64,000 nt of DNA. It comes from Streptomyces sp. WP-1 (GTDB taxonomy: Bacteria; Actinomycetota; Actinomycetes; Streptomycetales; Streptomycetaceae). Below the pieces are notes generated by a model. That model had not been told where the DNA came from and ran no database searches. It worked only from the letters and a program-made list of their open reading frames with translations. The position numbers and the translations under genes are program-made. Below, piece by piece: positions 1 to 34,112 of this stretch; within the stretch, counting starts at the first letter, position 1, and the number at the start of each line of letters is the position of its first letter. The DNA lies in contig NZ_CP123923.1 of NCBI RefSeq assembly GCF_030450125.1, positions 248,001 to 312,000 of the forward strand. The letters run 5' to 3'.

Positions 1-3000
1 CCGCTGGGCGAGCGCGGCGGGTGTCGGGTGGTCGAAGACCAGCGTCGCGGGCAGGCGCAGGCCGGTGGCCCGGTTCAGCCGGTTGCGCAGTTCCACCGCG
101 GTCAGCGAGTCGAAGCCGAGGTCGCCGAATGCCTGGTCGGGCTGGACGGCCTTGGCCGAGCTGTGTCCGAGGACGGCGGCGGCCTCGGAGCGCACGAGGA
201 CGAGTACGACGTCCGCGCGCTCGCTCTCGGGCAGCCCCGCGATCCGCTGTGCCAGCGGTACGGCGGACGCCCGGTCGCTACGGCGCGACCGGCCGCCCAC
301 GAGTGCCTTGAGCAGCGGCGGGACCGGCGCGGTCGCGTTGCGCAGCGCGGCCAGGTCCAGCCGTGCCGGCACCACCACCGGTTCGTCCGACGCGAGGGCG
401 GCGTCGAGGAGTTCGAGGCCGTCCTCGTCGGACAGCGGCAGCACACCGCCACGGGCGAGCCGGCCGCGGTCGGCGCCGCCGAGGTCCTCGGTCATGGCGC
501 CGGTGCGCTGCCACAGGCCCCACGGCAGTGACAGCGCGGGCAGCCCCTGTCCCCGGCGTTGTGCGGCGAAGGCGTCCAGGTAGGCGTTGGCCGCCGCGTA
601 GTTGGCCTGGCCGGGGGTGCCGAGGGTGCCCGCGAGGGACGAGAAGACGACGAACGCCGAGACGTCGCCGGCCAGTTCGTGCAGGTTGAGCACGGCGTCG
701 ACCTTGGGTCGCAGGACCGTCTCCAGGCGCTCCGGGGTGAGCGCGGGGAGCACGCCGTCGTCGAGGACACCGGCCGTGTGCACCACGGCCGTCACCGGTG
801 TGCCGGACAGCGCGTCGGCGAGGGCGTCCCGGTCGGCCACGTCGCAGGCCGCCCAGCGCACTTCGGCACCGGCCGCGGTCAGTTCCGCCGCGAGTTCCGC
901 CGCGCCCTCCGCGTCCGCGCCGCGCCGGCTCATCAACAGCAGTTCGCGCACGCCGTGTTCGGCGACCAGGTGCCGGGCGACGAGTCCGCCGAGGGCACCG
1001 GAGGCACCGGTCAGCAGGACGGGGCCGGGCCCGAAGTCCACGATGGCCCGCGGGGCGTCGGCGGCGGTCCTGGTGAGCCGGGGCAGCAGGAGCGTGTCGC
1101 CGCGCAGCGCGGCCTGCGGCTCCTCGAAGGCGAGGAGCCGGGGGACGACGGTCGCCGCGATCCGCTCCACATCGGTGTCCCCGTCGGCGTCGTCCGCGCT
1201 CTCCGCGTCCGGGTGCGCGTCGCCGCCGTACTCGCTCCCCGCGCCGGTACGCGCGTCGGCGTCGATGAGGACGATGCGGTCCGGGTTCTCGGACTGCGCC
1301 GAGCGGATCAGGCCCCACACGGCGGCCTGCACCGGGTCGGCCGTCGCCGGGCCGCCCGTTTTCGGACCGTCCCCCGCTTCCGGACCGTCCCCGGCCGCGA
1401 CCGCGCCCCTGGTCACCAGCACCAGCCGGGCCACCCGCTCCTCGGCCAGCCACCACTGCACCAGCCCGAGCACCTTGCGCAGGACGTCCCGGACACGCTC
1501 GGCGTCGGCGCCCGACCCCACGGGGCAGGGCACGACCACGGCGTCCGCGTACGCCCGCGCCCCGGTCTCCGACGCGGGAGCGGCGAGCAGGGCGGAGATG
1601 TCCTCGTAGGCCCGTACGACGGTGGTGTGCCCGTCGGCCTGTGCGGTGAGCGGTGCCCACTCCACGGTGAACAGGGAGTCCCGGGCGCTCGTGCGCAGCT
1701 GCTCGGCCGACACCGGGCGCAGCGTCAGCGACTCCACCGAGACGACGGGTCGGCCCGTGCCGTCGGCGGCCTCCAGCCGTACGGTGTCCCCGCCTGCCGG
1801 GGAGAGCCGCACCCGCAGCTCGGCCGCTCCGGTGCCGTGCGGGGTGACGCGGGACCACGCGAAGGGCAGCAGGGGCCCGTCGGCGGCCGGTACGAGGCCG
1901 CCCGCGCCCAGCGCGTGCAGCGCCGAGTCGAGCAGGGCCGGGTGCACGCCGAACGTGTCCGGCCGCGCCTCCTCGGCGACGGCGAGTTCCGCGTACACCG
2001 CGTCGTGGCCGCGCCAGGCGGCACGCAGTCCCTGGAAGACCGGGCCGTAGCTCAGTCCGAGGCCCGCCAGGCGGTCGTAGAAGCCGTCCAGGTCCACCGG
2101 CTGCGCGTCGGCCGGGGGCCAGCTGCGCAGGTCGGTGCCGGGCGGGGTCGCGCCCGTGGTGAGGACTCCGGTGGCGTTGCGGACCCAGGATCCGGCACCG
2201 GCGCGCGAGTGCACGCTCAGCGGGCGGCGGCCGGAGTCGTCCTGGGCGCCCACCAGCACCTGGAGTGCGACGCCGCCCTCCTCGGGCAGTATCAGCGGTG
2301 CGTGCAGGGTGAGTTCCTCCACCAGGTCGCAGCCGGTCTCGGCGGCGGCGTGGGCGGCGAGTTCCACGAAGGCCGTGCCCGGCAGCAGGACCGTACCGAG
2401 CACCGCGTGGTCGGCCAGCCAGGGCTGGGCGCGCAGGGACAGCACCCCGGTGAGCAGATGGCCGCCGGCGTCCGGCAGCTCCACCGCCGCGCCCAGGAAC
2501 GGGTGGTCGGTGGCGTCCAGCCCGGCCGCCCGTACGTCACCGGCGGGGGCGTCCGCCGCCAGCCAGTACCGCTCGTGCTGGAACGCGTAGGTCGGCAGGT
2601 CGGTGCGGCGCGCGCCCGGCAGGACGGTGTCCCAGTCGATGCCGACGCCGTGCACATGCGCCTGGGCGAGGGAGAGCATCAGCCGGTCGGGGCCGCCGTC
2701 GCGGCGGCGCAGTGTCGGTACGACCGCCGCGTCCGTCTCGGCGGCCTCGATGGTGTCCTGGATGCCCGCCGACTGCACCGGGTGCGGGCTGACCTCGACG
2801 AACACGTCGTAGCCGTCGGCCAGGGCGGCCCGGATCGCGTCGTGGAACCGTACCGTCTCGCGCATGTTGCGGTACCAGTAACCGGAGTCCAGCTCACCGG
2901 TGTCCAGTTTTGTGCCGGTCACCGTGGAGTAGAAGGGCACGGCGCCGGGGCGCGGGCCGACGCCGGCGAACCCCTCGGCGGCCAGGGCCTGGACGCGTTC

Positions 3001-34112: not shown

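Follow-up and report, generated by a model that had tools for sequence, protein, structure and literature searches.

The left part of the Streptomyces sp. WP-1 DNA analysed here (64,000 nucleotides, bases 248001-312000 of a 7.62 Mb genome assembled as a single contig; hereafter the window) is occupied by two polyketide synthase (PKS) genes on the minus strand, which take up positions 1-34112. PKS A1 spans 10641-34112. Its longest open reading frame begins at 34199, but the ATG at 34112, with GTGGAG ahead of it, is the likelier start. PKS A2 starts at 10569 and extends 278 bases past the left edge of the window. The sequence examined comprised the window, 60 kb to its left and 120 kb to its right, with genes called by codon composition, and three further PKS genes were found on the same strand left of base 1: A3 (genome 242227-247689), A4 (genome 223568-242191) and A5 (genome 213424-223530). 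The reading frames of all five PKS genes are open. This part of the window is the 5' half of a cluster of the known pentamycin type, which continues on the chromosome to the left of base 1.

Modules were called from domain profiles together with active-site motifs, and the KS, AT and DH profile matches in A1 and A2 scored 413-829 bits, far above chance. All modules are encoded on the minus strand. The loading module (30849..34112) has the organization KSQ-AT(malonyl)-ACP, with a KS motif, DSGQSSS, in which glutamine replaces cysteine, and an AT with GHSIG/HAFH; it would provide an acetyl starter (C28-C27). Module 1 (26355..30848; KS-AT(malonyl)-KR-ACP), which includes a PKS_DE dimerisation element, is predicted to convert C27 to a hydroxyl and to add C26-C25. 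It is followed in A1 by module 2 (21129..26282), module 3 (16068..21050) and module 4 (10911..16001), and in A2 by module 5 (5287..10470), all of which are KS-AT(malonyl)-DH-KR-ACP modules with GHSVG/HAFH in the AT; they would introduce C24=C25, C22=C23, C20=C21 and C18=C19, respectively. Module 6 (1..5205), whose ACP ends at approximately base 1, has the same domains with an AT of the methylmalonyl type (GHSQG/YAAH) and probably forms C16=C17 with a 16-methyl group. Every other AT of A1 and A2 carries GHSVG or GHSIG with HAFH. This is the filipin-family pattern, in which a KSQ loading module and a KR module precede five DH-KR modules and the AT of the sixth extension module is of the methylmalonyl type. 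A preliminary description of this DNA had listed the modules as KSQ, KR, four malonyl DH-KR and one methylmalonyl-like DH-KR, which is exact module by module. The 16-methylpentaene of the filipin/pentamycin type that it predicted, with a methyl at C28, an oxygen at C27 and a pentaene at C16-C25, is what these modules would give and is supported. The product family was in this case correctly readable from module order alone.

The extension KSs retain DTACSSS in 13 of 13 cases. With this motif and five open PKS frames, the idea that the PKS domains are a misread or accidental series, or that the cluster has decayed, is refuted at the sequence level and retains next to no probability; nothing was found in its favour. 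The order of modules 1 to 13 is identical in the three other clusters that were dissected, namely those of S. griseofuscus and of two further Streptomyces genomes, G101 and G326. In the latter two, some PKS genes appear to be split into overlapping frames, which may reflect sequencing errors or real frameshifts. The KRs fall into two sets: modules 1-7 have the LDD motif of the B type, and in modules 8-13 LDD is missing at the motif position, a division that amounts to a stereochemical prediction. A quick pattern search had assigned the B type to the KRs of modules 11 and 13 as well; this was rejected, as the LDD that had been picked up lies elsewhere and the position of the motif itself has none.

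Left of base 1, seven further modules and a terminal thioesterase (TE) complete an assembly line of 1+13 modules in five proteins, with module 7 in A3, modules 8-11 in A4 and modules 12 and 13 and the TE in A5. About eight further modules, mostly KR-only, and a thioesterase had been anticipated there; the thioesterase is present and modules 8-13 are indeed KR-only, but the count is seven and module 7 carries a degenerate DH. The seven modules (genome 213424-247689) are all of the kind expected to give hydroxyls. The last AT, in module 13, is atypical (GHSQG/GAGH), and its GAGH motif does not fix the side-chain length; the C-terminal tail of A5 contains the thioesterase motif GYSSG. The filipin PKS of S. 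avermitilis (pte) likewise comprises 14 modules in five proteins, according to PMC4527110. With regard to the DH of module 7 (genome 242227-247689, minus strand), the YGPxF segment is absent in 15 of 15 aligned sequences (our own and 14 relatives), which points to one common deletion; S. filipinensis, where a contig ends, and S. morookaense were left out of this alignment. According to our count on the same alignment, the catalytic histidine is lost in 3 of the 15 sequences and the aspartate in 5. A hexaene formed by means of this DH was considered and rejected, and no hexaene is expected because the segment is missing throughout. An inactive DH7 has already been published for thailandin (PMC6273641).

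Beyond A5, the genes were found to be arranged in the order crotonyl-CoA carboxylase/reductase (CCR) type, FilC-type P450, FilD-type P450, ferredoxin, divergent SARP-type regulator, PAS-LuxR, GMC oxidase and a discrete thioesterase. The CCR-type gene matches TIGR01751 with 588 bits (cut-off 379). Both filipin-type P450s are present: the top PDB match of the FilC/PteC-type enzyme is 3aba (825 bits) and that of the FilD/PteD-type enzyme is 3abb (817 bits, the next-best sequence scoring 490), structures which we take to be CYP105P1 and CYP105D6, respectively. The GMC oxidase reached a score of 95.5 with the NCBIfam cholesterol-oxidase model, far under the cut-off of 850. This order beside A5 fits the B-C-D-E-R-F-G-H order of fil/pte, as described beside filA5 of S. 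filipinensis in PMC4527110. FilC is reported to act at C26 and FilD at C1'. The SARP-type regulator (genome 205783-209301) contains three TTA codons (306, 309 and 312), and the other cluster genes scanned have none, whereas TTA codons are listed for 5 of 12 coding sequences of the S. rochei pentamycin (pem) cluster (PMC6662830).

On the other side of the PKS genes, divergent from A1 and 285 bp apart from it, lies a plus-strand pair consisting of a CYP105-like cytochrome P450 (34398..35615; best PDB match CYP105AS1, 387 bits) and a small single-cluster ferredoxin (35627..35821; Pfam Fer4_15/Fer4_13), which are of the PemI and PemJ type, respectively. The P450 is 96% identical to the copies of S. 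griseofuscus and S. murinus, and the ferredoxin is identical to the S. griseofuscus copy over 66 aligned positions, stop included. Pentamycin is 14-hydroxyfilipin III, also called fungichromin, and the PemI-type P450 is the proposed C14 hydroxylase, which would convert filipin III to pentamycin. We infer this regiochemistry from the presence of the gene in producers and from the PenM paper (ACS Chem Biol 2019), which reportedly bears on C14 hydroxylation by a P450. According to PMC6662830, the cluster of S. rochei 7434AN4 equals a pte-type set to which a single P450 gene (pemI) and a single ferredoxin gene (pemJ) are added, both of which pte is reported to lack, unlike the cluster found here. 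Because the P450 and the ferredoxin of the window match pemI and pemJ and come on top of the filipin gene set, the designation filipin/pentamycin can be narrowed to the pentamycin type. The preliminary description had named the family correctly; its range stopped just short of the pair that decides for pentamycin. The presence of this pair offers a rule, applicable inside the window, for telling pentamycin clusters from filipin clusters.

The closest known system is that of S. griseofuscus DSM 40191 (NZ_CP051006; PMC8443760), which has the same five PKSs (89-92% identity) with the same modules as here, and whose FilC- and FilD-type P450s are 98% identical to ours. PMC8443760 states that this strain makes pentamycin, as confirmed against a standard, and that production was lost in a derivative in which the plasmids had been cured and the pentamycin-NRPS region deleted. 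The published product of S. filipinensis is filipin III. The preliminary description had held that downstream modules giving no polyol with a terminal TE, or closest matches to an unrelated polyene family, would speak against it; the modules are of the polyol type with a terminal TE, and clusters of the filipin family match most closely, as judged from the P450s, the fil/pte gene order and the S. griseofuscus PKSs. A product of the thailandin/chainin type, whose side chain would be shorter (butylmalonyl) or whose ring would be bridged, was also weighed. The thailandin cluster of Actinokineospora bangkokensis shares 14 modules, KSQ, a methylmalonyl AT6, an atypical AT13 and an inactive DH7 with ours, and a butylmalonyl unit has been proposed for this PKS of the same layout; it differs by four PKS genes, rhamnosylation and the bridged ring (PMC6273641). 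As five PKS genes close to those of a pentamycin producer and both filipin-type P450s are found here, this alternative is very improbable.

With high confidence, the region constitutes the 5' half of a cluster for the biosynthesis of pentamycin, which would operate as follows. The KSQ module would decarboxylate a malonyl unit to the acetyl starter, module 1 would set the C27 oxygen, and modules 2-6 would build the pentaene, with module 6 contributing the 16-methyl. Modules 7-13, left of the window, would then form a 1,3-polyol, module 7 acting through its KR next to a dead DH. By colinearity, this predicts a C28 methyl, a C27 oxygen, five double bonds between C16 and C25 with a 16-methyl, hydroxyls at C15, C13, C11, C9, C7, C5 and C3, and a side chain at C2. 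Module 13 probably takes an alkylmalonyl unit made by the CCR-type enzyme, and the TE would close a 28-membered lactone. Hydroxylation at C26 by the FilC/PteC-type P450, at C1' by the FilD/PteD-type P450 and at C14 by the PemI-type P450 would complete the molecule. The domain order, motifs, gene content, orthology and co-occurrence are observed; it is from these that we infer the chemistry, including a hexyl side chain and the position of the C14 hydroxyl.

The distribution of the PemI-type P450 bears on whether the pair belongs to the cluster. Among 392 genomes of the genus, our own included, 28 have FilC-type P450 matches at E<=1e-100; in nine of them the identity is 90-100%, and in the others it does not exceed 50%. 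PemI-type matches at E<=1e-120 occur in 6 of the 392, and all six are among the nine genomes with a C26-hydroxylase orthologue of at least 90% identity, so that in this sample the gene did not turn up outside genomes that carry the family. It is also present in 10 of 13 named relatives (82-96% identity); at the same threshold, no match was found in the genomes of S. filipinensis, S. hygroscopicus ATCC 21589 and S. poonensis. When genomes showing the same places were merged, 18 distinct taxa with the cluster remained, 13 with the P450 intact and free of stops, and five without it. The span from the FilC-type to the PemI-type P450 was measured in five clusters and is 72.3-72.7 kb in each. The distances of these two P450s agree over the 13 taxa (Spearman 0.71, a value reached in 0 of 2000 permutations), which fits common descent and also allows co-transfer of the cluster. 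An alternative reading, in which the cluster is a filipin III cluster and the neighbouring P450-ferredoxin pair is part of something else, is favoured by the G101 cluster, where PKS order and accessory genes are the same and the pair is absent. This reading is nevertheless unlikely given the divergent position of the pair at 285 bp from A1, the constant span, the restriction to genomes with the family, the stop-free frames and the report that pem differs from pte by this P450 (PMC6662830); assignment to the pentamycin type is preferred. In G326, the PemI-type P450 is intact, but the 9.7 kb read beside A1 yielded no match to its ferredoxin; the FilE-type ferredoxin might serve both P450s there. 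The best-match identity of 62% for A2 in the same genome was not taken at face value, the match lying on a neighbouring PKS gene rather than on the A2 orthologue.

The DNA beside A1 was read in all five taxa without an intact P450, namely G218, S. poonensis, G101, S. filipinensis and S. hygroscopicus ATCC 21589, from assemblies rather than from reads. Position 1 denotes the first base upstream of our A1; in this numbering, the P450 occupies 286-1500, its stop codon excluded, and the ferredoxin 1515-1709. G218 aligns to positions 1-472 (79%) and then to 1625-1712 (84%, 4.8e-22). Its remnant thus joins P450 codons 1 to approximately 62 to about the last third of the ferredoxin, corresponding to one deletion of approximately 1.15 kb. 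S. poonensis aligns to positions 2-418 (69%) and 661-824 (74.5%, 1.4e-22) and retains scattered decayed pieces, with a stop inside one protein-level P450 piece. G101 aligns to positions 1-352 (75%), or to G326 positions 1-341 (84%), which covers just the first 15-22 P450 codons; its protein-level match is weak (E 0.088, or 0.63 against its 100 kb), and the call of a remnant is a positional one that rests on location and DNA alignment. The alignment ends before the P450 in both S. filipinensis, at position 228 (260 against S. griseofuscus), with no coding remnant and no recognisable trace in the 8.7 kb beside A1, and S. hygroscopicus ATCC 21589, at position 167, with no coding remnant. Of the five taxa, two consequently have clear coding remnants, one has a positional remnant and two have none.

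The breakpoints differ, and therefore at least three separate losses are implied. It is probable that the pentamycin type is ancestral and that filipin-type clusters arose repeatedly through loss of the divergent P450 and ferredoxin. On the gene tree of the FilC-type P450, the distribution of taxa with and without the extra P450 takes 4 label changes, compared with a mean of approximately 4.6 after shuffling (191 of 500 shuffles as low), and good support is confined to 3 of the 17 inner branches; by itself, this tree neither shows nor excludes repeated loss, nor does it favour loss over gain. If the proposal is true, filipin, the archetypal polyene probe, would be a recurrent loss-of-tailoring product. 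The remnants yield a testable account of filipin and pentamycin producers, in which the C14 hydroxylase was repeatedly lost, not gained; had such losses been favoured, making a less hydroxylated polyene might have an ecological reason. The cluster is otherwise an ordinary one of a known and published type, and the PemI-type remnants are the one point for which no description was found in the literature searched, gene loss in this family included, most subscription journals being out of reach.

Two small genes to the right of the ferredoxin, at window positions 35791-36402 and 37365-37871, are without a match in the S. griseofuscus stretch compared. Further to the right are two giant NRPS genes on the minus strand, at window coordinates 40638-60536 (6632 aa) and 60550-79524 (6324 aa), the second running on past the window's end at 64000; together they cover genome 288638-327524. 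Pfam searches on parts of each and a motif scan revealed many condensation, adenylation and carrier domains in both. This NRPS pair is taken for a separate system outside the macrolide line. Over the 2706 aa stretch compared, the first NRPS is 95% identical to the one adjoining the S. griseofuscus pentamycin cluster, and an NRPS is also listed a few loci away from the S. rochei pem cluster, which was compared with ours on the basis of its description (PMC6662830).
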